The notes below the pieces were generated by a model, which saw nothing but the letters and a program-made list of their open reading frames with translations, had not been told where the DNA came from and did no database searches. This document shows, in pieces, positions 9,174-29,546 of a stretch of DNA of 64,000 nucleotides. How positions within the stretch are numbered: position 1 is the first letter of the stretch; each line of letters begins with the position of its first letter. This DNA comes from Georgenia satyanarayanai (GTDB taxonomy: Bacteria; Actinomycetota; Actinomycetes; Actinomycetales; Actinomycetaceae), in the NCBI RefSeq assembly GCF_023715365.1, contig NZ_JAMBNZ010000004.1, forward strand, positions 62,001 to 126,000, written 5' to 3'. The translations under genes were made by a program, and so were the position numbers.

Positions 9174-9653
9174 TCAGTCGGCCGCGCGGGCGGCCTGCCG
9201 GTCGGCGGAGGCGTGCACGGCCTGGAGGATCTTCTCGTAGCCGGTGCACCGGCACAGGTTGCCGGCCAACGCCTCACGGATCTCGGCATCGTCGGGGTGG
9301 GCGTTGCGGCGCAGCAGGTCGTGCACCGCGACCACCAGTCCGGGGGTGCAGAAGCCGCACTGCACGGCGCCGCACCTGATGAACTCCTCCTGGACCGGGT
9401 GCAGGTCCTCGCCGTCGGCGATGCCCTCCACGGTGATGATGTCCCGCCCCTGCACCTGAGGAGCTGCGATCAGGCAGGAGCAGACGAGGACGTCGTCGAC
9501 ATAGACCGAGCAGGAACCGCACTCCCCCTGCTCGCAGGCGCCCTTGGCGCCAGGCAGGCCGACGCGGTCGCGCAGCATGTCCAGCAGGCTCTCGGTAGGG
9601 CGGACGTCCTCGACCTCCCGCTCGACCCCGTTGATCGTGGCTGTCACTCGCAT
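9174..9653 (-). CDS. Molybdenum hydroxylase small subunit, two [2Fe-2S] clusters (CoxS-like)
   Basis: A 159-residue iron-sulfur subunit. The plant-type cluster uses C40, C45 and C48 (GACEQGECGSC) plus a later Cys in LVCSCL. The second, helical cluster uses CGFCTPG and CRCTGY. It passes electrons from the molybdenum site to FAD in a three-subunit hydroxylase. The ATG at 9653 has AAGGG upstream inside the end of the FAD subunit gene, which it overlaps by 10 nt. The architecture (separate S, M and L subunits) differs from the fused xdhA of the adjacent operon, marking a second, independent enzyme. Confidence 0.92.
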   Translation of the reverse strand: MRVTATINGVEREVEDVRPTESLLDMLRDRVGLPGAKGACEQGECGSCSVYVDDVLVCSCLIAAPQVQGRDIITVEGIADGEDLHPVQEEFIRCGAVQCGFCTPGLVVAVHDLLRRNAHPDDAEIREALAGNLCRCTGYEKILQAVHASADRQAARAAD

Positions 9654-10570
9654 GTCGTCATCCCTTCTCCGTCCCGACCTGCTCGGCAGCCGGTCGGCCG
9701 CCGGTCACCGTGTCGATACTCCGACCACGCCCAGCTCAACGTGCGTCGCGCCATCACACCGACGGCGCTGCGGCGGTAGCCGGCGGTGCTGCGGACGTCG
9801 TCGATCGGAGCGGTGCAGCCGGCCACCTGTCGTCCGAACTCGGCGACCAGGCTCTCGGGCAGCTCCGCCCGGGAGTGCCAGTACCCTCCCTCGTCGAGCG
9901 TGCCGGCCAGGAACTCCTCGGCGGCCACGGCCTGCAGCGGGGTGGGGCCCACCGAGCCCATGCCGATGCCCACCCGGCCGGCGCGCGGGTGCAGGGTGAG
10001 CGCGACACTGGCCACCGAGATGACCATGGCGTTGCGGGTGCCGATCTTGGAGTACTGCTGGGGGCCGGTGTCGGTGGGAACCCAGATCGCGACGATGAGC
10101 TCGTCGGAGGCCACGCAGTTGCGCTTGACACCGGTGAAGAAGTCGGCGACCGGGACGTGCCGGGTGCCGTCGACCCCGCGGATCTCCACCTCGGCGCGGG
10201 TGGCGATGAGCGTGGGCGCGCTGTCGCCGGCCGGCGAGGCGGCGCCGAGGTTCCCGCCGACGGTGCCGCGGTTGCGGATCTGCGGGGAGCCCACGGTGCG
10301 CGAGGCGATCGCCAGGCCGGGCAGGTCCCGGCCGAGCTCGGACAGCACCCGGGTGTACGGGACGGCGGCGCCGAGGCGGATCCGCTCGCCCTCCCGCCAC
10401 CATCGGCCGGCATCCTCCAGCCGGGTCATGTCCATGAGGGGAGCCGGCCGGCGGTGATCGAAGTTGAACTCCACCATCAGGTCGGTGCCACCGGCGATCG
10501 GCAGCAGACCTGGCGTCTGTGCACGTGCCTGCAGTGCCTCGTCCCAGGTGGTCGGCTGGAAGAAGTTCAT
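9644..10570 (-). CDS. Molybdenum hydroxylase FAD-binding medium subunit (CoxM-like)
   Basis: A 308-residue FAD subunit. LLPIAGGTDLMVEF is the N-terminal pyrophosphate loop. The middle motif TVGSPQIRNRGTVGGNLGAASPAGD is the usual IRNxxTxGGN FAD signature of this family, followed by DFFTGVKR and the CO-dehydrogenase-flavoprotein C-terminal domain. It would hand electrons from the iron-sulfur subunit to NAD or another acceptor. The ATG overlaps the stop of the large subunit by one base (TGATG). About the last 25 residues (RHGDRRPTGCRAGRDGEG) are charged and unlike the family core. Confidence 0.92.
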   Translation of the reverse strand: MNFFQPTTWDEALQARAQTPGLLPIAGGTDLMVEFNFDHRRPAPLMDMTRLEDAGRWWREGERIRLGAAVPYTRVLSELGRDLPGLAIASRTVGSPQIRNRGTVGGNLGAASPAGDSAPTLIATRAEVEIRGVDGTRHVPVADFFTGVKRNCVASDELIVAIWVPTDTGPQQYSKIGTRNAMVISVASVALTLHPRAGRVGIGMGSVGPTPLQAVAAEEFLAGTLDEGGYWHSRAELPESLVAEFGRQVAGCTAPIDDVRSTAGYRRSAVGVMARRTLSWAWSEYRHGDRRPTGCRAGRDGEGMTTCE

Positions 10571-12942
10571 CAGGCACTCCTCGCTGCCACGGTCACCTGA
10601 ACACCCTCGTCGACGTCGACGATGTGCTCCGGACGCACGGGCGCACGCACCAGGTCCAGGCCCGTGGCATCACGTAGCGCGTTGAGGACTGCCGGTGTGG
10701 AGGACAGGTTGGGCGGCTCCCCGACGCCGTTGAGCCCGTACGGGGAGTCCGGGTGCGGGAACTCGAAGATGTCCACGGGCATCGGTGGCACGTCCAGGAT
10801 CGTGGGGATGAGGTAGTCGGTGAAGGAGGGGTTGAGGAGCTTGCCCTCCGGGCTGAACAGCAGCTCCTCCATCACCGCCAGACCCAGGCCCTGGGCGTTG
10901 CCACCGTGGATCTGGCCCTCCACGGCCATCGGGTTCAGCGCCTTGCCCACGTCCTCGGCGGTGGCGAGCTCGACCACCTTGACGAGGCCGAGCTCCACGT
11001 CCACGTCCACCACCGCGCGGTGCGCGCAGAAGGCGAACGCGATGTGCGCGTTCCCCTGTCCTGTCTCCGGGTCGATGGGCTCGGTGGGCCGGTGCCGGTA
11101 GACGTGGTGGCCCTCGATCGTCTCGGTGCCGACGGCCTCGGCCAGGGACATGCACGCTGCGCCGCTCGTGAGCTCCACGACGACACCGTCCTCCAGCGCG
11201 AGGCCGGCCGCGGGGATGCCCAGCCGGGTGGCAGCGCGCTCGAGGACCTGCGCGCGGACCTGGGCGCAGGCACCGGTGACCGCGCCCATGGACATCCAGG
11301 ACATCCGCGAGGCCGAGGCCGAGCCGGCGTCGCCGATCAGCGTGTTCGCAGGCAGCACCACGACGCGCTCCACCCCGAGCTCGGTGGTCACCGCCTGCGC
11401 CTGCAGGGTCGTGACGCCCTGGCCCATCTCGGCGGCAGCGGTGTGCACCGAGGCGATAGGCGCTCCGCCGGCCACGCTGAGACTGACCCGCGCGGTGCAC
11501 ACGTCGTCGACGCCGCCCGAGTAGCCGATGGCCTTGATGCCGATGGCGTAACCCACACCGCGGCGCACCCCTTCACCGTGGGTGGTGTTGGAGACGCCCC
11601 CGGGCAGGTCACGCAGGTCAGCCGCACCGACGCGCGCGGGCGGCAGGGGACGGTCACGCACGGCCTCCAGCAGCTCTCGCACCGGGACGGGACCGTCCAC
11701 CGGTTGGCCGGTGGGCAGGACGGTGCCCTCGACCATCGCGTTCTTCAGCCGCAGCTCCATGGGGTCCATGCCGAGCGCCTTCGCGAGCTTGTCCATGTTG
11801 GACTCGACGCCGTAGATGCCTTGGACGGCACCGAAGCCGCGCATGGCTCCGCAGGGCGGGTGGTTGGTGTACACGACGCGGCCGTTGATCTCCGCGTTGG
11901 GGACGTCGTAGGCCCCCGCCACGAAGTAGCAGCAGTTGGCCAGCACCACCTGGGAGGTGGAGGTGTAGGCCCCACCATCCATGAGCACGTCCACCTTGAC
12001 GTAGACGATGGTGCCGTCCTTCTTGGCGCCGTGCTCGAAACGCATCGTGGCGGGGTGGCGGTGCACGTGGCCGTAGAACGACTCGCGCCGGTCGTAGACC
12101 ATGCGGGCCGGTCGGTTGAGGTGCAGGGCGATGAGGCAGGCATGCAGCTGGACCGAGAGATCCTCCTTGCCGCCGAAGGCGCCACCGATGCCGGCCATGT
12201 GCAGGCGCACCTTGTCCTCGGGAAGGTCGAGGCAGGGCGCCATCTGTTTGCGATCGGTGTGCAGCCACTGGCAGGAGATGTACAGGTCCACCCCGCCGTC
12301 CTCGCCGGGCAGCGCCAGGCCGGACTCGGGCCCCAGAAAGGCCTGGTCCTGCATGCCGACCTCGTAGGTGTCGCTGACGACGACGTCGGCCGCGGCTCGC
12401 GCGGCGTCCATGTCCCCGTGCCTGATCGTCAGGTCCCGGATGACGTTGCCGCCTGCCCAGTCCTCGTGCACGACGCGCTGGCCCGGGTCGGCGGCGCTCC
12501 CCGGGTCCAGGAGCGGCTCCCAGGGCTCGTACACGACATCGACGAGTCTGGCGGCCTGCGCGGCCAGGACTGGGTCGTCGGCGGCGACGAGCGCCACCGG
12601 CTCGCCCTCGTACCGGACCCGGTCGATGGCGAGCACCGGCTGGTCCGAGACTTTCATGCCGTAGGTCTTGGCGCCGGGCACGTCCTCATGGGTGAGGACG
12701 GCGTGCACCCCCGGCACTGCCAGGGCGCGGGAGACGTCGATGCTCCTGATGGCGGCCGCCGGGTGCGGGCTGCGGACGGTGACGCCGAAGACCTCGCCGT
12801 CGACGCTGAGGTCGGAGGAGTAGGCGAACTGGCCGGTGACCTTCAAAGGGCCGTCCGGGCGTGGTGCGCTGACACCGATACCGGAGCCGGTTCGCGACTC
12901 CGTGGCGCTCAGCAGGGCGGAACTCCGTGGCGGGGACGTCAT
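10570..12942 (-). CDS. Molybdenum hydroxylase large subunit (xanthine dehydrogenase family, CoxL-like)
   Basis: A 790-residue molybdopterin-binding subunit. Recognisable segments are the N-terminal domain (PLKVTGQFAYSSDL), GIGGAFGGKED, GAMRGFGAVQG, the cofactor loop AAEMGQGV, and GVGEPPNL near the C-terminus with the catalytic Glu. Start 12942 is chosen because AAGGAG lies 6 nt before it; the in-frame ATG at 12957 overlaps that site. It hydroxylates an N-heteroaromatic ring or aldehyde with water as the oxygen source; the substrate is unknown. It differs clearly from the XdhB in the next operon (for example GIGGAFGG against MGGGFGG). Operon order is large, FAD, iron-sulfur, XdhC-like. A promoter about 330 nt upstream is proposed. 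Confidence 0.9.
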   Translation of the reverse strand: MTSPPRSSALLSATESRTGSGIGVSAPRPDGPLKVTGQFAYSSDLSVDGEVFGVTVRSPHPAAAIRSIDVSRALAVPGVHAVLTHEDVPGAKTYGMKVSDQPVLAIDRVRYEGEPVALVAADDPVLAAQAARLVDVVYEPWEPLLDPGSAADPGQRVVHEDWAGGNVIRDLTIRHGDMDAARAAADVVVSDTYEVGMQDQAFLGPESGLALPGEDGGVDLYISCQWLHTDRKQMAPCLDLPEDKVRLHMAGIGGAFGGKEDLSVQLHACLIALHLNRPARMVYDRRESFYGHVHRHPATMRFEHGAKKDGTIVYVKVDVLMDGGAYTSTSQVVLANCCYFVAGAYDVPNAEINGRVVYTNHPPCGAMRGFGAVQGIYGVESNMDKLAKALGMDPMELRLKNAMVEGTVLPTGQPVDGPVPVRELLEAVRDRPLPPARVGAADLRDLPGGVSNTTHGEGVRRGVGYAIGIKAIGYSGGVDDVCTARVSLSVAGGAPIASVHTAAAEMGQGVTTLQAQAVTTELGVERVVVLPANTLIGDAGSASASRMSWMSMGAVTGACAQVRAQVLERAATRLGIPAAGLALEDGVVVELTSGAACMSLAEAVGTETIEGHHVYRHRPTEPIDPETGQGNAHIAFAFCAHRAVVDVDVELGLVKVVELATAEDVGKALNPMAVEGQIHGGNAQGLGLAVMEELLFSPEGKLLNPSFTDYLIPTILDVPPMPVDIFEFPHPDSPYGLNGVGEPPNLSSTPAVLNALRDATGLDLVRAPVRPEHIVDVDEGVQVTVAARSA

Positions 12943-13276
12943 GATGATCTCCTTCATGGACCACCGGCGAGATGCGTGCGCCGGTGCCGGCTGTGCTCAT
13001 GGCTGCGTCGCTGCTGCCCCCGTGGGAGCCACGTCAGCGCCGTCGCTTGCACACACACCGGTTGAGGTGCCCCCTGGCACGCGCATCGTGGCGGCCCCCG
13101 GGCATCAGGGCGTTGGGTCGAGACATCGAGGAGACCGGGTCGCGGTACTCCTCTTCCGTACCTCCTCGGGGTCGAACGTTCCCACCCCGGCCGCGGAACA
13201 GTGCACCTACGGGTTGCCGCCATTGCCTCGACGGCACAGTGAGTGCTCCTGCGTTGGCGCACCCACTCCACGCGCA

Positions 13277-13373: not shown

Positions 13374-14179
13374 TCACTGGCGCGCAGGGTCGGACTCCAG
13401 GGACTGCACCAGTGCGGCTGCGGCGCTGATCGCGATCACCGGAGGGGACTTTCCCACGACGCCTGGAATCCCGATGGGACACGCGATCGTGGCGATCGCG
13501 GCGTCGTCGTGGCCGGCCTCGCGCAGGCGCTTGCGGAAACGCGACCACTTCACCCGCGAACCGATGAGCCCCACGCCGGCCAGGTCGCCGCGGGTCAAGG
13601 CTGCATCGCACAGGACGAGGTCCTCGGCGTGGTCGTGGGTCATGACGAGCACGTGCGAGCCGGTCGGCAGGGAACCCAGGACGGTCTCCGGGGCCGGCGC
13701 GTGGTGGACGTGGACGTCGGCGGGCCCCACGACGCCCCCGAGGCGCTCGCCGGTGAGCTGGTCCGCGCGGCTGTCGACCAGGTGCAGCGCGACCGGCAGC
13801 CGGGCCAGTATCTGCGCCAGCTCCAGACCGACGTGGCCAATGCCGAAGACCGCCACCGTGGCACGGGAACGCAAGGGCTCGAGCAGGAGCGTCACCTCGC
13901 CCCCGCAGCACTGGTTGCCGTGGGCGGTGACGGCATGCTCGTTGAGCGACATCACCATGGTCTGCGGCTCGGTGGTGCCGTCGTCGAGGATCTCGCGTGC
14001 CCGGTCGGTGGCGGTGGCCTCGAGGTTGCCCCCGCCGATGCTGTCCCAGGCGTCCTCGGCGGACACCACCATCTTGGCCCCCTGCTCGCGCGGAGCGTGC
14101 CCGCGCACCTGCGCGACCGTGACCAGCACCCCGGGCCGGCCGGTCGCCCGCAGGTGCACGGCAGCGGCCAGCCAGTCCA

Positions 14180-14180
<1 letters not shown>
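13374..14180 (-). CDS. xdhC: XdhC, xanthine dehydrogenase maturation protein
   Basis: A 268-residue XdhC. The N-terminal domain carries GRPGVLVTVAQVRGHAPRE, SIGGGNLEA and the CCGGEVTLLLEP motif with the conserved Cys pair. The C-terminal Rossmann domain has VAVFGIGHVGLELA, GLIGSRVKWSRF and ACPIGIPG. It binds molybdenum cofactor, promotes its sulfuration and inserts it into XdhB. The start codon overlaps the xdhB stop (TGATG); a GTG one codon earlier is an alternative. Last gene of the operon, followed at once by a hairpin. Confidence 0.92.
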
Positions 14181-16566
<2,386 letters not shown>

Positions 16567-16570
<4 letters not shown>

Positions 16571-18033
16571 CGTGCCACCTCCAGTGTCTCGCTCTGCTCG
16601 TTCTCGGCGTAGAAGCGCAGCAGGGCCTGCTCGAGCATCGCGCTGCGGTACCGCGAGCTCGCCCGGTGGTCGTCCAGTGGCGTGCCTTCCTGCGCCATGA
16701 TCGCCGCCGCAGTCATGACCGTCTCCTGGCTCCACCTGGTGCCGACAAGGGCCTCCTCGGTGGCCCGCGCGCGCAACGGGGTGGCCGCCACACCTCCGAG
16801 GCCGATCCGCACAGCGCGGACGGTTCCTTCCTCGATGCTGGCCGCAATGGCGATGGCAACGCTGGAGATGTCGTCGAAGCGTCGCTTGGCGACCTTGTAA
16901 AAGGCCGAGTGCTCGGCCAGCGGAAGCGGGATCCGCACCGCCCGGATGATCTCCCCCGGCTCCTTGCGGGTCCGTCGGTAGCCCGTGAAGTAGTCAGCGA
17001 GCGCGATCGTGCGCTCCCCCTGCCGGCCCGCGAGGACGAGGTCGGCACCCAGCGCGAGCAGCGCCGGAGCCGCGTCCCCGATGGGGGAGGCCGTGCCGAG
17101 ATTGCCGCCCAGCGTGGCCCCGTTGCGGATGAGACGAGAGGCGAACTGTGGGAACAGCTCGGCCAGCATCGGCACCCGCCCGGCCAGCGCGCGCTCGATC
17201 TCCGAGAGAGTCAGCGCCGCGCCGATCTGGATGTGGTCCTCAGCGACGGTCAGCCCACGCAGCTCCTCGAGCCGGTCGACAGCGATGATCTGCCGCGGTC
17301 GGCTGTGCCGCAGGTTGAGCTCCACCCCCACGTCGGTGGCGCCCGCGACGACGACTGCGTCGGGCTGCTCGTCGAGCAGCTCGAGCAGCTCGGCGAGAGT
17401 CTGCGGACGGGAGAACCGGGTGCCGTCGGAGGCGTGTCGGGTGTGGCGCGGCGGCGGTGCCGGCTGCTCACGCCGCTCGGCCAGCGGGTCGCCGCCTGCA
17501 GGCTCCGTGAGCGCGTAGGCGGCGTCGCGGATGGGACGGTAGCCGGTGCAGCGGCACAGGTTCCCGCTCAGCGCGTGGAGGTCGAAACCGTTGGGTCCCG
17601 TGTGGCCTCCCGCATCCTGCGGCGCCGTCGCCCGCTCAGGGCGGTAGTACTCGGCCGCCATGGCGCACACGAAGCCCGGGGTGCAGTACCCGCACTGCGA
17701 CCCGCCCCGTTCGGCCATCTCACGCTGGACGGGGTGCAGGTCCTGCTCGACGCAGGCGCCACCGGCCTTGCCCAGCCCCTCTGCGGTCACGACTTCCTGC
17801 CCGTCGAACGCCATCACCGGGGGCAGGCAGGCATTGACCGAGGTCCACCGGCTCCCGCCCGCGCCGTCCGGACGTGCCACGAGCACCGCACAGGCACCGC
17901 ACTCCCCCTCGGCGCACCCCTCCTTCGCGCCGGTCAGCCCCTCGGCACGTAACCAGTCGAGCAGGTTCGTGTAGGTGCCACAGTTGACAACTTCCCGGGA
18001 CCGTCCGTTGACGGTCACCTCGATGCGCCCCAT
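16567..18033 (-). CDS. xdhA: Xanthine dehydrogenase FAD/iron-sulfur subunit (fused)
   Basis: A 488-residue fusion of the two electron-transfer modules. Residues 1-175 hold two [2Fe-2S] sites (C40, C45, C48 in GCAEGECGAC; CGYCTPGFVC; NLCRCTGYRP). A variable linker of about 35 residues leads to the FAD domain (VVVAGATDVGVELNL, IRNGATLGGNLGTASPIGD). It takes electrons from XdhB and reduces NAD. GAGGAG lies 6 nt before the ATG. First gene of the xdh operon; its 5' leader has the promoter TTGCCG-17-TAGTGT and the foldable GGCATGG/CCATGCC element shared with the guanine deaminase operon. Confidence 0.95.
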
Positions 18034-18096
18034 TGCTCACTCCTCGTCGAGTCGGGCTTTACAGGTGCTCCGCTGCATCCCGTGAGGACTGCCGGG

Positions 18097-18158
18097 CAGA
18101 GGCATGGTTTTGTTGTTCTGGTCGACCACCGGGCTGCTAGGTATCCATGCCGAACGAC
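18097..18158 (-). ncRNA. Conserved foldable 5' leader of xdhA (candidate riboswitch, copy A)
   Basis: The xdhA leader RNA starts with GTCGTTCGGCATGG and ends with AAAACCATGCCTCTG. The complementary heptamers GGCATGG and CCATGCC (plus-strand 18145-18151 and 18101-18107) close a 37-nt loop that contains ATACCT, CCCGG, a small inner hairpin (TGGTCGACCA) and AAAA. The same two blocks, with a 35-nt loop, precede guanine deaminase. The element starts about 10 nt after the predicted transcription start, so it is transcribed. A small hairpin CTGCC-GGCAG follows it. I cannot match it to the classical purine aptamer. A DNA-binding protein site is the alternative. Confidence 0.55.
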
Positions 18159-18174
18159 AGCGCGGTAGACAGCG

Positions 18175-18203
18175 ACACTACTCCCCGGTTCTCCCCACGG
18201 CAA
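18175..18203 (-). promoter_or_regulatory. xdhA promoter
   Basis: On the reverse strand TTGCCG (18198-18203), 17-nt spacer, TAGTGT (18175-18180). The guanine deaminase promoter has identical boxes, the same spacing and the same 16-nt distance to the conserved leader. Confidence 0.65.
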
Positions 18204-18304
18204 GGTAATCGAAATCAAATTTTCACATGGCGGACATCAGACGCAACGCCCTGTCCGTGGCGGCGGACGCCGGAGCCCGTGCGCCGGCGCCCGCCTCGGT
18301 CTGG

Positions 18305-19741
18305 TCACACGGCGAAGAAGACGTACCTGACGGCGAGCAGTGCCGCGACGAGGTAGAGCACCGGGTGGACCTTGCGCAGTCCACCGGTGAGCGCCTTGAT
18401 CGCGCAGTAGCTGATCACCCCGAGGCTCACGCCGTTGGCGATGGAGAACGTCAGCGGCATGGCGATGATCGCGAGGAACGAGGGCACTCCCTCGGAGATC
18501 TCGTCCCACTCGATGTGCCGGATCCCGTCCATCATCATGGCGCCGACGAGGATGAGCGCGGGCGCCGTCGCCGCTCCGGGGATGGCCCCGGTCAACGGCC
18601 ACAGGAACATCGCCGCGGCGAACAGCAACCCGGTGACGGTCGAGGTGACGCCGGTCCGACCGCCGTCCTGGATGCCTGAGGCGCTCTCCACGTAGGTGCC
18701 GGTGGTCGAGGTCCCCATGAAGGCGCCGAACATCGTCGCCACCCCGTCCATGGCGAAGGTCGTCTTCGCGCGGGGCATGTCGCCGCGCTCGTCGAGGTAG
18801 CCCATCTTCTGGGTGAGGCCGGTGAGCGTGCCCGTCGCGTCGAAGAAGTCGACGAAGAAGAAGGTGAAGACGACGGTGAACAGTCCCAGACCGAGGGCCC
18901 CGGCGAGGTCGAGCTGACCGACCAGCTCGGAGGGCCAGACCGGCATGGCCACGAGCCCGTCGGTGAACCCTGGGAAGGCGCGGAGCCCACCGTCCTCACC
19001 ACCCCCGTAGACCTGGGCGCTCGTGACGATCGCCAGGACCGAGCTCGCAAGGATGCCCCAGAGCAGCGCCCCCTTGACCTTGAGCTGGAGCAGGACGGCA
19101 GTGACGAGCAGTCCCACGATCGCGACCCAGGCTGTCGGGGCACTGAGGTCACCGAGCGTCACCAGGGTCGCCTCGTCCGTCACGACGATGCCGGCGCTCC
19201 GCAGACCAAGGAAAGCCAGGAACGTCCCGATACCCGCCATGATGGCGAACTTCAGGCTCTGCGGGATCGCCATGACGATGGCCCGACGGGCACCGACCAC
19301 GCTGAGGACGACGAACAGCACCCCGGAGATGAAGACCGCGCCCAGCGCCGTGCGCCACGGCACGCCCATCCCCAGGACGACGGTGTAGGAGAAGAAGGCG
19401 TTCAGGCCCATTCCCGGCGCCTGGGCGAAGGGGTAACGCGCGATGAGCCCCATCACCAGGCAACCCACACAACCCGCGATCGCCGTCGTCATGAGGATCT
19501 GGACCGGCGCATTGGGCACGTCGATGGCGACGCCGAGCACCTGGGGGTTGACGACGATGATGTAGCTCATGGTCAAGAAGGTCACGATCCCGGCGCGGAC
19601 CTCCCGGGGGAAGGTCGAGCCGGCAGCCGTGACCCCGAAGAAGCGGTCGAGCGCCCCCTTGACACCTCGTCCGGTCGAGCCAGGGCCAGGCGCCTGGACC
19701 CGCGTCTCGTCAGCGCGGCTGTTCTCCTTGGTCGTGCTCAT
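18305..19741 (-). CDS. AzgA-type NCS2 purine permease
   Basis: A 478-residue hypoxanthine/guanine/adenine permease of the COG2252 (AzgA/PbuG/GhxP) branch of NCS2. It begins LDRFFGVTAAGSTFPREVRAGIVTFLTMSYIIVVNP in family style and contains APGMGLNAFFSYTVV and the FVDFFDATGTL and GTSTTGTYVESASGI signatures of purine transporters. About 12-14 membrane helices are visible. It is downstream of guanine deaminase and overlaps it by ATGA, so uptake and the first catabolic step are made together. Guanine or hypoxanthine is the likely cargo. Only a weak hairpin follows at 18268-18289. Confidence 0.92.
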   Translation of the reverse strand: MSTTKENSRADETRVQAPGPGSTGRGVKGALDRFFGVTAAGSTFPREVRAGIVTFLTMSYIIVVNPQVLGVAIDVPNAPVQILMTTAIAGCVGCLVMGLIARYPFAQAPGMGLNAFFSYTVVLGMGVPWRTALGAVFISGVLFVVLSVVGARRAIVMAIPQSLKFAIMAGIGTFLAFLGLRSAGIVVTDEATLVTLGDLSAPTAWVAIVGLLVTAVLLQLKVKGALLWGILASSVLAIVTSAQVYGGGEDGGLRAFPGFTDGLVAMPVWPSELVGQLDLAGALGLGLFTVVFTFFFVDFFDATGTLTGLTQKMGYLDERGDMPRAKTTFAMDGVATMFGAFMGTSTTGTYVESASGIQDGGRTGVTSTVTGLLFAAAMFLWPLTGAIPGAATAPALILVGAMMMDGIRHIEWDEISEGVPSFLAIIAMPLTFSIANGVSLGVISYCAIKALTGGLRKVHPVLYLVAALLAVRYVFFAV

Positions 19742-21063
19742 GGTGCCTCCTGTGGTGTTGTCACGCCGGCCGTCGTTGGCCGGGCGCGGAACGCTTCGTG
19801 CCCGCCCACCCAGACACCGGCGATGTCAGCGGGCGAACCGAGGGCAAAGATCTTGGCGAGGGCGTCGGTCGGGTCGGTGGCGTGACGCATCGTCATGGCC
19901 AGCGTCCCGTCCGGCCGCGGCCGGACCCATACGGCATCGAACTGCCTGCCGGGTGAGAGGTCTCCGACGTCCTGTCCCATCCCGAGCGCGAGCGCGCCCG
20001 AACGGGTGGCGAGGTGGAGGAGGTCCGCGGTGGCGAGCGGCGCTCCCTCGCCACCGAGGAGCTGCTGCACGAAGTAGGCCTGGAGGCCCTCCTTGAGGAG
20101 GCAGAAGCCGGTGCCGGCACCGACGTCCGAGCCCAGTGCCACCCGCACGCCCGCATCGAGGTGCCGGCGCAGCGGGAAGAGCCCGCTGCCGAGGGCCGAG
20201 TTGGACGACGGGCAGTGGGCGACGGCGCAGCCCGCACCGGCGAGCACGTCCAGCTCCCGGTCGGTCGGGTGGACGTTGTGCGCGAAGACGGAGCGCTCGG
20301 TCGCCAGTCCGTGCCGTGCGTAGGTGTCGAGGTAGTCGATCGACGTGGGGAAGAGTCGGGCGACCTCGGCGACCTCGGCCGGGTTCTCGTTGAGGTGACT
20401 GGTGAACCACCGGTCCTCGGTGAGCAGCTCGGCACAGACCTCGAGCATCTCCTCGGTCGTCGACAGGGAGAAGCGGGGGGTGACGGCGTAGCGCAGTCGG
20501 CCGCGGCCGTGCCAGCGCCGCGCCAGTGCCTCGCTCGCCTCCAGGGCAGCGGCGGGGCTCTGGAGCAGCTCCCCGCGCAGGATCCGGTCGCTGAGCACCA
20601 TGCCGGAGGTGATCCGTTGCCCCGTCGTCACCGCCTCGGCGAAGAGGGCGTCCATGGCCCCGGCGAAGTGCGAGCCGAAGACGAGTGCCGTCGTCGTCCC
20701 CGATCCGAGGAGCCCGCCGAGGAAGTCACGGGCGACGCCGCGCGCGTAGCCCTGGTCTGCCAGGCGGGCCTCCTCCGGCAGCGCGCACTCCCGCAGCCAG
20801 TCGAGCAGCGTCATCCCCAGGCCACCGATGACGCGCACCTGCGGGTAGTGGACGTGGGTGTCGACGAAGCCGGGGAGCAGCACACCGTCCCGGAGGTCGA
20901 GGACCTCCTCCTGCGGGTACGCCGCCCGTGCGCTCGGGACATCGGTCCGCGCGAGGATGGTGCCGTTGCGCACCACCAGCGCGACGTCCTCCCCGGAGCG
21001 CAGCCCGTCGGGGTCCCCGAGCGTCCCCGGTGTGTCCAGCACGGTGGCACGGATGATCGTCAT
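19738..21063 (-). CDS. guaD: Guanine deaminase
   Basis: A 441-residue amidohydrolase that converts guanine to xanthine and ammonia, feeding the XdhAB enzyme next door. Family marks are PGFVDTHVHYPQVRVIGG (HxH zinc pair and substrate loop), TTALVFGSHF, FTSHLNENPAEV, VAHCPSSNSALGSGLFPL and the zinc Asp in LGSDVGAGTGFC. The PQ after the HxH pair and the PSSNSALGSG stretch separate guanine deaminases from other members. A GAGGGAATGAGTG stretch precedes the ATG. First gene of an operon with the AzgA permease, expressed from a promoter and leader that mirror those of xdhA, so the two purine operons are probably co-regulated. Confidence 0.95.
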   Translation of the reverse strand: MTIIRATVLDTPGTLGDPDGLRSGEDVALVVRNGTILARTDVPSARAAYPQEEVLDLRDGVLLPGFVDTHVHYPQVRVIGGLGMTLLDWLRECALPEEARLADQGYARGVARDFLGGLLGSGTTTALVFGSHFAGAMDALFAEAVTTGQRITSGMVLSDRILRGELLQSPAAALEASEALARRWHGRGRLRYAVTPRFSLSTTEEMLEVCAELLTEDRWFTSHLNENPAEVAEVARLFPTSIDYLDTYARHGLATERSVFAHNVHPTDRELDVLAGAGCAVAHCPSSNSALGSGLFPLRRHLDAGVRVALGSDVGAGTGFCLLKEGLQAYFVQQLLGGEGAPLATADLLHLATRSGALALGMGQDVGDLSPGRQFDAVWVRPRPDGTLAMTMRHATDPTDALAKIFALGSPADIAGVWVGGHEAFRARPTTAGVTTPQEAP

Positions 21064-21104
21064 GGCGCACTCATTCCCTCGCCAGCCTCACAGCGACATT
21101 GCTG

Positions 21105-21134
21105 CTGTCTGCGCGGTCTGGACCGCGCAGACAG
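21105..21134 (-). terminator. 14-bp hairpin between the guaD leader and start codon
   Basis: Perfect arms 21105-21118 and 21121-21134 with a 2-nt centre. The 5' arm in the RNA begins with the CTG that ends the conserved leader block, and the hairpin ends about 40 nt before the guaD start. It could be an attenuator or a block on translation initiation. No U-run follows. A much weaker hairpin (18089-18099) occupies the same place before xdhA. Confidence 0.5.
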
Positions 21135-21191
21135 AGGCATGGTTTTCGCGAGCGCGTGCGCCGGGTCGTGAGGTTATCCATGCCGAACGAC
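21132..21191 (-). ncRNA. Conserved foldable 5' leader of guaD (candidate riboswitch, copy B)
   Basis: Same architecture as the xdhA leader: GTCGTTCGGCATGG (21178-21191), a 35-nt loop with ATAACCT, CCCGG, an inner GCGCACGCGC hairpin and AAAA, then CCATGCCTCTG (21132-21142). The outer blocks are identical to copy A over 14 and 15 nt, while the inner hairpin differs in sequence but keeps the ability to pair, as expected of a structured RNA. It begins about 10 nt after the predicted start of transcription. Confidence 0.55.
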
Positions 21192-21207
21192 GACCGCGGC
21201 GTACCGC

Positions 21208-21236
21208 ACACTATCGGCACCCGGGCGGCCCGGCAA
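21208..21236 (-). promoter_or_regulatory. guaD promoter
   Basis: On the reverse strand TTGCCG (21231-21236), 17-nt spacer, TAGTGT (21208-21213). Identical in boxes and spacing to the xdhA promoter. Confidence 0.65.
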
Positions 21237-26151: not shown

Positions 26152-27009
26152 TCACATACGGGCCGAGGCGCGCGCGGAGCTGCCCTCCTGGGCGTCGTCG
26201 TCCCACTCGCCACGGGCGCGCAGGACCTTGCGCAGCACCGTGGGGCGGTCGGTGACGAGCCCGTCGACACCGAGGTCGAGGAGCCGGTGCATCGTGGGAG
26301 CGTCGTCGATGGTCCACACGTGGACCTCCAGGCCCAGGCGGTGTGCACGCTGGACGAAGGCGGGGGTGACGACCGGGACGCCGCGGTGGCGCACGGGCAC
26401 CTGCACGCACACGGCACGGTCCGTCGTCGTGCCCGACGGCGTGGGGACGCCGCGCGCTGGGGCACCGAGCGTCGCGGCGACGACGAGCCGGGCGGTCTCC
26501 TGCCGGGCCAGGCTCGTGGCGACGCGCCCCTGGGTGGCCCGGCGCACGACCTGCACCCGGCGGTCGGAGAAGGAGGCGAGGCACACACGGTCACCCGCTC
26601 CCGCCTCGGCGATCGTGCGGAGCGCCGGGCCGACGACGCCGTCCTCCTTGAGGTCGATGTTGAGGCGCAGGGCCGGGAAGTCCCGTAGCGCCTCGTCGAG
26701 CCGGACGAGGGAGCCGCCGGCGCGGTCCCGCAGCCGCGACGCCTGCTCCCACGTGAGCGCGGAGAGGGGACCGTGACCGTCGGTGGTCCGGTCGAGCGTC
26801 GGGTCGTGGTGGAGGACGACGACGCCGTCCGCGGTGCAGCGGACGTCGGTCTCGAAGTAGCGGTAGCCGAGGGCCTCGACGTGCGCGAGAGCGGCGCGGG
26901 AGTTCTCGGGCACCTCCGCCCCTCCCCCACGGTGCGCGAGCGCGGCCGGGCCGTGCCGGTCGAGGTACGGGGTCCCTCCGGCGCGGCCGCCGCTCAGGAG
27001 GCCGTGCAC
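26152..27009 (-). CDS. Glycerophosphodiester phosphodiesterase
   Basis: A 285-residue GDPD-family TIM barrel that hydrolyses glycerophosphodiesters to glycerol-3-phosphate and an alcohol. The catalytic segment is AHRGGGAEVPENSRAAL with the HRG and PEN motifs. It is followed by FETDVRCTADGVVVLHHDP (ExD metal ligands and second His), LNIDLKED and VHVWTIDD near the end. There is no signal peptide, so it is cytoplasmic. The GTG at 27009 overlaps the end of the upstream M23 peptidase gene by 16 nt. The 12 C-terminal residues are Ser/Ala/Arg-rich and variable. Confidence 0.9.
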   Translation of the reverse strand: MHGLLSGGRAGGTPYLDRHGPAALAHRGGGAEVPENSRAALAHVEALGYRYFETDVRCTADGVVVLHHDPTLDRTTDGHGPLSALTWEQASRLRDRAGGSLVRLDEALRDFPALRLNIDLKEDGVVGPALRTIAEAGAGDRVCLASFSDRRVQVVRRATQGRVATSLARQETARLVVAATLGAPARGVPTPSGTTTDRAVCVQVPVRHRGVPVVTPAFVQRAHRLGLEVHVWTIDDAPTMHRLLDLGVDGLVTDRPTVLRKVLRARGEWDDDAQEGSSARASARM

Positions 27010-28319
27010 TGGCTCGGGGCGACCAGGGTGAGACCGAGCGAGGCGAGGAAGGGCAGGGGGTCGACGGTCGTGCCGTAGGCCCGGGTGGGGAAGGGGTTGC
27101 GGGGCCGGGGTTCGGAGGCGCTCGGCTCGTCGCTGGGCTCCTCGGACGGCTCCTCGGTGGGCTCCTTCGAGGGGTCCTCCGTGGGCTCCGCGCTGGGCGT
27201 CCCGCTCGGCTCCGGGCTGGGGATCTCGCTCGGCTGTTCCGAGGGCTCCTCCGAGGGCTGCTCCGACGGCTTGTCCGTGGGCTCCTCGGACGGGTCGTCC
27301 GACGGCTCCTCGGACGGGTCCTCCGTGGGCTCCTCCGACGGGTCCTCCGTGGGCTCCTCCGACGGGTCCTCCGTGGGCTCCTCCGACGGGTCCTCCGAGG
27401 CGTCGTCCGTCGGGTCCTTCGAGGGGTCCTTTGAGTCGTCGTCCGTCGGGTCCTTCGAGGGGTCCTCCGAGGCGTCGTCCGTCGGGTCCTTCGAGGGATC
27501 CTCCGACGCGTCGTCGGACGGCACGCCGGGGCTCGGGACCGCGCTGAGGACCATGGCGGTGGACGTCCGGGTGACCGGGGTCTTCGTCAGTCCGAGGCCG
27601 GCGTCGGAGGTGTGGATCTCGAAGTGGAGGTGCGGGCCGGTGGAGTTGCCATTGCTCCCCACCTCCGCGATGACCTCACCGGCACGCACGTGCTGCCCGG
27701 GCTCGACGAAGACGCCGTCGGGGTACATGTGGACGTACCAGCTGTAGAAGGTCGTGTCCCGCACCGTGTGCTCGATGATGACGAGCTCGCTGGAGCGGCC
27801 CAGGCGCCCGGCGCCGGTGTAGACGACCGTGCCGTCGGTGACGGCGTGGATGGGCGTGCCGAGCGGGGCGGCGAAGTCCACGCCCGTGTGGAGCGAGTAG
27901 CTGCCGAAGATCGGGTGGGTGCGGTAGCCGTAGGGCGAGGTCACCCGGTAGGTACCCGGGGCCACCGGGTAGCTCGCGCACAGCGGGGAGTCGGTGAAGG
28001 GGTCGGTGTGCGCCTTGAGGGTGGCCACCGACTCGGCGACGAGCGTGACACCGCCGCCGAGGCCGCCGCCGAGGCCGAGGCCGAGGCCGAAAGCATCCAC
28101 GGGCTCGGCCTCAAGGGTGAGGTTCGCCGTGACGAACGCACCGCCGGGCACCTTCGTGGGGCTCGGCACCGCCGTCCCGGCGGTCGTCAGTGCCGTGGTT
28201 CCGACGAGGAGGGCGGCGCAGCCGACCAGTCCCGCGCGCCGGAGCCGAGCCAGCCCGCCGAGACCGGTCGCAGGAGCGTCGGCGGTAGGCGCCGGCATCC
28301 CCCCTGCAGTCAGTGACAT
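26994..28319 (-). CDS. Secreted M23 peptidase with acidic Ser/Pro repeat tail
   Basis: A 441-residue exported protein. A Lys/Arg-poor N-terminus and a hydrophobic segment (LVGCAALLVGTTALTTAGTAV, about residues 28-48) act as signal. The M23 (lysostaphin-type) domain is about residues 110-245 with HTGVDFAAPLGTPIHAV and the metal/catalytic motif GPHLHFEIH. A 150-residue DPSEEPTE/DASEDPSKDP repeat tail follows, then a short hydrophobic end (LPFLASLGLTLVAPSQ). The domain normally cuts peptidoglycan cross-links; the acidic repeat is probably a wall-spanning spacer. AGGGGA precedes the ATG at 28319. The DNA repeats are exact (27321-27500), so length may vary between strains. Confidence 0.85.
   Translation of the reverse strand: MSLTAGGMPAPTADAPATGLGGLARLRRAGLVGCAALLVGTTALTTAGTAVPSPTKVPGGAFVTANLTLEAEPVDAFGLGLGLGGGLGGGVTLVAESVATLKAHTDPFTDSPLCASYPVAPGTYRVTSPYGYRTHPIFGSYSLHTGVDFAAPLGTPIHAVTDGTVVYTGAGRLGRSSELVIIEHTVRDTTFYSWYVHMYPDGVFVEPGQHVRAGEVIAEVGSNGNSTGPHLHFEIHTSDAGLGLTKTPVTRTSTAMVLSAVPSPGVPSDDASEDPSKDPTDDASEDPSKDPTDDDSKDPSKDPTDDASEDPSEEPTEDPSEEPTEDPSEEPTEDPSEEPSDDPSEEPTDKPSEQPSEEPSEQPSEIPSPEPSGTPSAEPTEDPSKEPTEEPSEEPSDEPSASEPRPRNPFPTRAYGTTVDPLPFLASLGLTLVAPSQCTAS
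27321..27500. repeat. In-frame tandem repeats inside the M23 gene
   Basis: Three identical 24-bp units (27321-27344, 27345-27368, 27369-27392), each encoding eight residues of the DPSEEPTE type, then three 36-bp units (27393-27428, 27429-27464, 27465-27500) encoding DASEDPSKDPTD types; the middle one has diverged slightly. All keep frame. Confidence 0.9.
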
Positions 28320-28427
28320 CCACGTCCCCTTGCGATCTCGGCCGCGCAGGCACGCAGCCGGCCCAGCGTAACCGAGGTCACAGGCCCGGGTCCATCCGCC
28401 CATCGGGCAGACCGGAAGGCAGCGTCG

Positions 28428-29546
28428 TCAGCAGTCGGCGGAGACCATGACGGCGTCGTGGTCGGCGAGGAACGCGCCGGGGTCCGTCGTCGTCCCGGAC
28501 TCGTCGAGGTGGATCTCGAGGTGGAGGTGGGGGCCGGTGGAGTTGCCGTTGTTGCCGACCTCGCCGATGACCTCACCGCCGCGGACCTGCTGGCCCTCGG
28601 TGACGAAGACCCCGTCCTCGTACATGTGGACGTACCAGCTGAAGAAGGTCTGGCCGTCGATCTCGTGCTCGACGATGACGAGCATGCTCGAGCGCCCGTC
28701 CAGGCCCTCGCCCGCGTGCACGACGACGCCGTCGGCGACCGCGTGGATGGGCGTGCCGAGGGGGGCGGCGAAGTCGAGACCCTCGTGCTTGGACCACGTG
28801 CCCTGGATCGGGTGCACGCGGTTCCCGTACAGGGAGCTCTGCGTGTAGGTGCCGACGGCGAGGGGCATGGCCATGCGCTCGGCCCCGAGCGCGGCGCCGG
28901 CACCGTTGGCGCCGCTGCCGGTGAGGGCGCTGCAGACCGCGGCGTCGCGGTCGACGCTGCGCGAGCTCTGGACGAGCGCGCGGGCGGAGGCGCTGGAGTC
29001 GGCGAGGAGGGCTGCGGTGCTGCCGGCGGCGTCGGAGTCGAGCCGGGAGGCCGCGGCGTCGAGGGCGTCGAGGACGGTCTCACCGGCGGGGACGGTGGCG
29101 ACGGCGGGCAGCTCCTCGGCGGCACCGTGGTCGGTGCCGACGAAGCCCGCGAGCGGGGCGACGATCGTCGCGGCGCCGAGCGCGCCGAGGACGGCCGCAC
29201 GGGGCATCCAGCGGGGGGCGTGCCCGCGGACCGGGCGGCGCGCGGAGGCCTGCTCCGCGGCGCGCAGCTCGGCGCGGCTGCGGTACTGCGTGCGGGCGGG
29301 CGTGCTGCCCTGCGCGTCCGCGGGGGCGGTCGTGGCGTCCTGCGAGGCGGTCACCACGTGCCGGGCCTGGCCCACGCGGCCGACGGTGCCGTCGAGCGGG
29401 ACGGTGGCGACGAGCGAGCCGGTGAGCGCGGACGCCGCGCGGGCGGCCGCCTCGCGGACGGCGAGCTGGCCGGCGCAGCGCTCCGCCTCCCGTAGCTGCC
29501 GTCGCGTCATCGGTGCCGTGGGGGGCATCGAGGCGCGCGCGGGCAT
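28428..29546 (-). CDS. M23 peptidase, membrane-anchored
   Basis: A 372-residue relative of the previous gene. A long Arg-rich cytoplasmic N-terminus (about 110 residues, including RRQLREAERCAGQ and RSRAELRAAEQ) leads to one membrane segment (AAVLGALGAATIVAPLAGFV). An extracellular helical linker and the M23 domain follow (HEGLDFAAPLGTPIHAV, GPHLHLEIH). HEGLDFAAP and the HLH pair keep the zinc ligands of active enzymes. AAAGG precedes the ATG. It reads the same way as the other M23 gene and shares about 60% of its catalytic domain by eye, suggesting an old duplication. Role: cell-wall hydrolysis or endopeptidase activation. Confidence 0.85.
   Translation of the reverse strand: MPARASMPPTAPMTRRQLREAERCAGQLAVREAAARAASALTGSLVATVPLDGTVGRVGQARHVVTASQDATTAPADAQGSTPARTQYRSRAELRAAEQASARRPVRGHAPRWMPRAAVLGALGAATIVAPLAGFVGTDHGAAEELPAVATVPAGETVLDALDAAASRLDSDAAGSTAALLADSSASARALVQSSRSVDRDAAVCSALTGSGANGAGAALGAERMAMPLAVGTYTQSSLYGNRVHPIQGTWSKHEGLDFAAPLGTPIHAVADGVVVHAGEGLDGRSSMLVIVEHEIDGQTFFSWYVHMYEDGVFVTEGQQVRGGEVIGEVGNNGNSTGPHLHLEIHLDESGTTTDPGAFLADHDAVMVSADC

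Follow-up and report, generated by a model that had tools for sequence, protein, structure and literature searches.

An H-type pseudoknot RNA in the leaders of actinomycete purine-catabolic operons, a candidate riboswitch class

Why do two purine-catabolic operons of one genome begin with the same leader? In a 64,000-nt stretch of Georgenia satyanarayanai (contig NZ_JAMBNZ010000004.1, positions 62,001 to 126,000; hereafter the window), a shared element lies on the minus strand upstream of xdhA, the first gene of a xanthine dehydrogenase operon, and of guaD, which encodes a guanine deaminase. We report here that the element is an H-type pseudoknot RNA of about 55-65 nt, lying at or near the expected start of each operon's transcript. 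As judged from sequence comparison, it is quite probably a new class of purine-catabolite riboswitch, a candidate sensor of a guanine/xanthine catabolite.

The shared leader element and its architecture

The sequence GTCGTTCGGCATGG is found exactly at 18145-18158 and 21178-21191 of the minus strand, with no further copy in the window, and AAAACCATGCCTCTG exactly at 18097-18111 and 21132-21146. When up to 3 mismatches were allowed, AAAACCATGCCTCTG still had 2 matches in the window, versus 0.33 expected by chance. Ten 12-mers are common to the 400 nt upstream of xdhA and of guaD, and only 30 of 2000 shuffled pairs shared at least one. In the whole source genome (3.72 Mb), the element was found twice, both copies being those of the window. 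The complementary heptamers GGCATGG/CCATGCC span 37 nt in the xdhA leader and 35 nt in the guaD leader, and both promoters read TTGCCG-17 nt-TAGTGT-16 nt-GTCGTTC, with the same spacing. A preliminary description, drawn from the sequence of the window, had pointed to these identical elements behind twin promoters and to the heptamer pair closing 37 and 35 nt; all are exact, and the heptamer pair corresponds to stem S2 of the fold described below.

Homologues were collected in three ways. First, a three-sequence covariance model led to about 10 further genomes of the same family, several of them Georgenia, in which the gene 3' of the element was xdhA or guaD wherever it was read. Second, the pattern GCATGGATAACC..AACCATGC, which imposes S2 and leaves the flanks forming S1 free, was scanned over 84,980 species and gave 98 stretches; counts of loci below rest on 80 of these 98. 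Third, 48 upstream regions of xdhA were read at the order level without using the motif.

From 5' to 3', the parts of the element are the first strand of stem S1, UUC(N) (loop L1), GCAUGG, AYAAC (loop L2), the second strand of S1, a variable loop ending in AA (L3), and CCAUGC. The loop closed by S1 contains GCAUGG, which can pair with CCAUGC further downstream, and the resulting fold is an H-type pseudoknot. Stem S1, of about 8 bp, joins the bases just 5' of GUU(C) to those just 3' of AUAAC, as in Agromyces (GCGCAUCG/CGAUGCGC), Gulosibacter (GACGGCUG/CAGCCGUC), Nocardioides (GCCUGUUG/CAGCAGGC) and Brevibacterium (GUUCUUCG/CGAAGAAC, the latter beyond an internal loop). In an alignment of 49 non-redundant sequences, made without the variable loop L3, 84% of the S1 cells were paired and 7 of the 8 pairs had double changes. 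Doubly changed cells numbered 71, versus 23.5 +/- 3.9 in shuffled and 16-36 in slid controls. This covariation was reproduced in a 43-sequence full-length alignment, and RNAalifold run on the homologue alignment returned S1 exactly. Finally, pairing of the S1 arms was stronger within one leader (-12.3 kcal/mol) than when arms were swapped between leaders (-7.4 +/- 0.4 kcal/mol).

The leader is therefore paired and structured, as first proposed, but its initial layout, a long P1 stem enclosing a small hairpin that changes sequence while keeping its pairing, is partly wrong. No inner hairpin is conserved or found by RNAalifold among the 43-49 homologues, S1 covaries instead, and P1 turns out to be the second stem of the pseudoknot. 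When the two window copies were folded singly with P1 only, the z-scores were 0.05 and -1.0, values that are uninformative because nested folding is blind to pseudoknots.

Stem S2 is fully complementary throughout the homologue set and nearly invariant. It was identical in all of the 26 leaders (out of 48) that carry the element at the order level, and 2 more (L185 and L186), found via xdhA and not via the motif, have CCGUGC for CCAUGC, that is a G-U pair, bringing the element or its variant to 28 of 48. The pseudoknot is thus backed by covariation for S1, and by invariant complementarity together with the G-U variant for S2. The two G-U leaders also offer natural material for testing S2. As for the loops, GUU followed by 1-3 nt is conserved in all homologues, and L3 ranges from 9 to 35 nt. 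In 2 of the 26 order-level leaders (L192 and L194), CCAAC replaces AUAAC as the L2 sequence while S2 is kept, a change that might alter ligand specificity. ACAAC and AAAAC were met among whole-genome matches to a covariance model, R3, again with S2 unchanged.

In most leaders, the end of the S1 5' strand is preceded, at 14-25 nt (mode 21-23), by a TANNNT box. Given this near-fixed distance to the -10 box, only a few nt would separate the first base of S1 from the expected transcription start. Such a distance could also suit a DNA operator just past the promoter, in which a repressor dimer or tetramer would bind the two CATGG half-sites, the inverted repeat CCATGC/GCATGG being nearly invariant. 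The preliminary description had kept such a repressor site as its alternative. However, S1 shows base-pair covariation, for which a DNA site has no need; the gap between half-sites varies freely, without helical phasing, with the 9-35 nt of L3; the UUC and AYAAC loops are conserved on one arm only; and the S2 variants retain RNA wobble pairing. The operator is already largely refuted by the covariation, and we give it very little credence.

The AUG within GCAUGG might alternatively open a leader peptide (M-D-N-x-R-P...) controlling the operon by attenuation; the CNG-CGN-CCN variation of codons 4-6 among Georgenia relatives has a coding-like look. This seeming codon pattern is nevertheless the 3' strand of S1. 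Besides, over 49 leaders, frame 0 does not stay open longer than frame +1 (median of 33 versus 37 codons to the stop), the lengths are random, and the reading frame of the window xdhA copy ends after 3 codons (ATG GAT ACC TAG), so that a leader peptide is most improbable.

Downstream genes and distribution of the element

The GTT loop was present in 69 of the 80 scan loci. Wherever the sequence was readable, a purine-catabolic gene lay directly downstream of GTT-loop loci (68/68): 63 xdhA, 2 amidohydrolase-type guaD, 1 pbuX-xdhA operon (pbuX, xanthine permease) and 2 CDA-fold guanine deaminase genes. None was found at the 10 readable loci lacking this loop, which are chance matches. Outside the window genome, whole-genome searches with R3 gave 8 strong matches (E <= 2.2e-9), all upstream of xdhA.

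Both CDA-fold loci belong to Calidithermus (Deinococcota). The deaminase is nearest to the CDA-fold guanine deaminase of the PDB (1wkq/1tiy, 8e-54), and is followed by uraD (OHCU decarboxylase), a probable urate oxidase gene and hiuH (hydroxyisourate hydrolase). The gene between uraD and hiuH, which had no NCBIfam match, probably encodes a membrane urate oxidase. With the amidohydrolase and the CDA-fold enzymes both found downstream, the same RNA precedes guanine deaminase genes of two unrelated kinds.

Apart from the two Calidithermus loci, those of the scan are mostly from Actinomycetes (Brevibacterium, Arthrobacter, Intrasporangium, Terrabacter, Pedococcus, Ornithinimicrobium, Nocardioides, Leucobacter, Agromyces, Flexivirga, Tsukamurella, Microlunatus and others). 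A strong match was present in 2 of 396 genomes sampled evenly across the phylum (the window genome and one other), and in about 9 of 395 genomes of the class sample, the window genome counted. Weaker covariance-model matches of the phylum search were due to chance where inspected, and most held little beyond AACCATGC. At the order level, 20 of the 48 xdhA leaders had no such element (L184, L187, L190, L193 and others). Such a patchy occurrence, confined to certain lineages, is consistent with the element being absent from Rfam.

Proposed function and the copies of the window

A covarying, structured RNA at the 5' end of the transcript, and a coherent association with purine-catabolic genes across lineages, argue for a riboswitch. 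The initial proposal of an unrecognised, purine-sensing leader RNA is strengthened by the covarying stem, the conserved loops, the position at +1, the gene association in two phyla and the absence of an Rfam match. We propose that a small molecule would bind in the S2/L1/L2 core and lock the pseudoknot. The ligand would most likely be xanthine, as the sole metabolite that guanine deaminase and xanthine dehydrogenase share, with guanine next. The switch may then adjust purine breakdown enzymes and transport, at the level of translation or of early transcription, the predicted start codon of the gene lying 27-75 nt after the end of S2. That the ligand turns these genes on is a guess, made on the ground that the pathway is catabolic. 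A molybdenum-cofactor ligand was also considered and is disfavoured, as the guaD leaders (window, L064, Calidithermus) control no molybdenum enzyme directly.

Several points weigh against a metabolite-sensing pseudoknot. S2 has no double compensatory change, and the wide scan demanded S2. In both window copies, S1 (GGUCGU/ACGACC for guaD; GCUGU/GCAGC plus CG/CG for xdhA) is weaker than in most homologues, being interrupted by an internal loop or a mismatch. A conserved expression platform did not emerge either, intrinsic terminators having been given no systematic search. The RNA could also be read by a protein or some other factor in place of a metabolite. The pseudoknot would then be real, but would serve an RNA-binding protein, either a purine-responsive one or a translational repressor. 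Near-invariance of S2, L1 and L2 is also expected of a protein recognition site, and the lack of an evident expression platform fits as well. Yet no conserved partner protein came to light, though no search was aimed at one; such a protein would have to exist in Deinococcota too, where the element is the same, and small aptamers typically have pseudoknot cores that do not vary. We consider protein recognition unlikely. If the riboswitch reading is correct, the element would represent another independent RNA solution to the sensing of oxidised purines, found in Actinomycetes, a group without reports of the NMT1 xanthine riboswitch. It would provide a testable account of the co-regulation of guanine deaminase and xanthine dehydrogenase, and a compact aptamer candidate (about 50-60 nt) suited to structural work.

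Features of the window are summarized in Table 1; R3 matched the xdhA copy at 18102-18164 (34.6 bits) and the guaD copy at 21137-21197 (43.3 bits). Profile matches agree with the gene identities given at the outset, xdhA-xdhB-xdhC on one side and guaD followed by an NCS2-type permease on the other. The true start of xdhB is probably internal to the predicted open reading frame (ORF). The hairpin that follows the guaD pseudoknot, seen in the window guaD leader only and with no U-run after it, is possibly part of an expression platform. Pairing of L3, S1 or S2 with the Shine-Dalgarno sequence, which would sequester the latter, was no better than between swapped leaders.

Table 1. Leader elements, promoters and operon genes in the window (minus strand).
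Feature	Position	Strand	Basis
xdhA promoter, -35-like TTGCCG	18198..18203	-	read directly; 17-nt spacing as in guaD copy
xdhA promoter, -10 box TAGTGT	18175..18180	-	read directly; TANNNT distance in homologues
xdhA copy, S1 5' strand CG-C-GCUGU	18157..18164	-	duplex with 18130-18137; S1 covariation in homologues
xdhA copy, L1 UUCG	18151..18154	-	GUU + 1-3 nt kept in all homologues
xdhA copy, S2 5' strand GCAUGG	18145..18150	-	exact match; homologue alignment
xdhA copy, L2 AUAC (consensus AYAAC, minus one A)	18141..18144	-	homologue comparison
xdhA copy, S1 3' strand GCAGC-C-CG	18130..18137	-	duplex with S1 5' strand
xdhA copy, S2 3' strand CCAUGC, conserved AA before	18102..18107	-	exact match; homologue alignment
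guaD promoter, -35-like TTGCCG	21231..21236	-	read directly
guaD promoter, -10 box TAGTGT	21208..21213	-	read directly; TANNNT distance in homologues
guaD copy, S1 5' strand GGUCGU	21190..21195	-	partner ACGACC at 21164-21169
guaD copy, L1 UUCG	21184..21187	-	conserved in homologues
guaD copy, S2 5' strand GCAUGG	21178..21183	-	exact match; homologue alignment
guaD copy, L2 AUAAC	21173..21177	-	homologue comparison
guaD copy, S1 3' strand ACGACC	21164..21169	-	duplex with S1 5' strand
guaD copy, S2 3' strand CCAUGC, conserved AA before	21137..21142	-	exact match; homologue alignment
Near-perfect long hairpin CUGUCUGCGCGGUC/GACCGCGCAGACAG (arm also read as CTGTCTGCGCGGTC)	21105..21134	-	directly 3' of guaD pseudoknot, before guaD start
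xdhA, xanthine dehydrogenase small subunit	16567..18033	-	TIGR02963 455.9 bits (cut-off 467, slightly under); Fer2, Fer2_2, FAD_binding_5, CO_deh_flav_C
xdhB, molybdopterin-binding subunit	14180..16735	-	TIGR02965 963 bits
xdhC, accessory protein	13374..14183	-	TIGR02964 265 bits
guaD, amidohydrolase-family guanine deaminase	19738..21063	-	PRK09228 461.9 bits (cut-off 351); PDB 6ohb guanine deaminase 3.8e-77
NCS2-type purine permease, second gene of guaD operon	18305..19741	-	Pfam PF00860

In Georgenia and near relatives (L035, L038, L040, L041, L043, L046), a short palindrome (GGGACTATGGTCCC / GGACTAAAGTCC / GGACTATCGTCC) encloses the -10 box, some 20-45 nt 5' of the element. It is absent from the window copies, and is possibly the operator of a separate regulator acting on the same promoters. 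Just past xdhC, a second molybdenum hydroxylase set (window 9644-12957) comprises a MoCoBD_1/MoCoBD_2 subunit and a FAD_binding_5 subunit; the covariance-model search found no copy of the element there. Elsewhere in the window (26994-29546), two adjacent ORFs are M23-type peptidase-like, the first with a long (D/E)PSEEPT-type repeat tail (by eye only).

Relation to known riboswitches

The search of the window against Rfam 15 returned tRNA only, and relaxed thresholds on its two leaders gave nothing beyond chance; the relaxed matches on the guaD leader were mostly to microRNA models, which do no more than recognise the long hairpin lying 3' of the element. The motif, which covaries well and has about 70 listed members, is thus still absent from Rfam 15. 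We found no published description of it in the open literature; subscription papers and preprints were outside this search, and an earlier description is possible.

The element might nonetheless belong to a described class (purine/guanine riboswitch, xanthine-II variant or NMT1 motif, also named xanthine-I), as downstream genes are of the same kind (PMC7373994, PMC9295807). The NMT1 motif, a short RNA, lies directly before purine-oxidation genes, some of them guanine-deaminase-like, and is reported in Proteobacteria only (PMC7373994, PMC8266621). It folds as a P1-P2a-P2b rod of stacked stems, whose internal junctions GAAGCG and CCCGGAAAUUG are conserved (PMC8266621). The present element resembles it as a short leader before purine-oxidation genes, with a presumably related ligand. 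It differs in that NMT1 has two stems without the GCAUGG/CCAUGC pseudoknot or the AYAAC loop, and the crystallised NMT1 core (GAAGCG ... CCCGGAAAUUG) is absent from it, as judged by eye against the crystallised sequence and by a blank relaxed Rfam search in which the presence of NMT1 is unverified. Xanthine-II RNAs, variants of the guanine riboswitch, are described as genetic ON switches and precede genes for xanthine dehydrogenase, allantoinase and dioxygenase (PMC9295807). Our element likewise sits before xanthine dehydrogenase genes, but xanthine-II is a three-way junction with kissing loops, of other sequence and size. The Rfam purine (guanine/adenine) riboswitch is comparable by its purine-related regulation. 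Its aptamer is also a three-way junction, and its model gave no match to the element at gathering or relaxed thresholds, in line with the misfit to the classical purine aptamer perceived initially. Given that neither the window nor 18 homologous loci matched Rfam 15, even at relaxed thresholds, membership in a described class seems quite improbable. We think it likely that the element defines a new, structurally unrelated guanine/xanthine riboswitch class, a 5'-end H-type pseudoknot controlling purine catabolism in Actinomycetes and Calidithermus.

By its overall topology, this candidate resembles preQ1-I and SAM-II, which are compact H-type pseudoknot riboswitches with a short L1 and an L3 ending in A. 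It departs from both by its conserved bases, its genes and its position, with an invariant S2 located 27-75 nt before the start codon.

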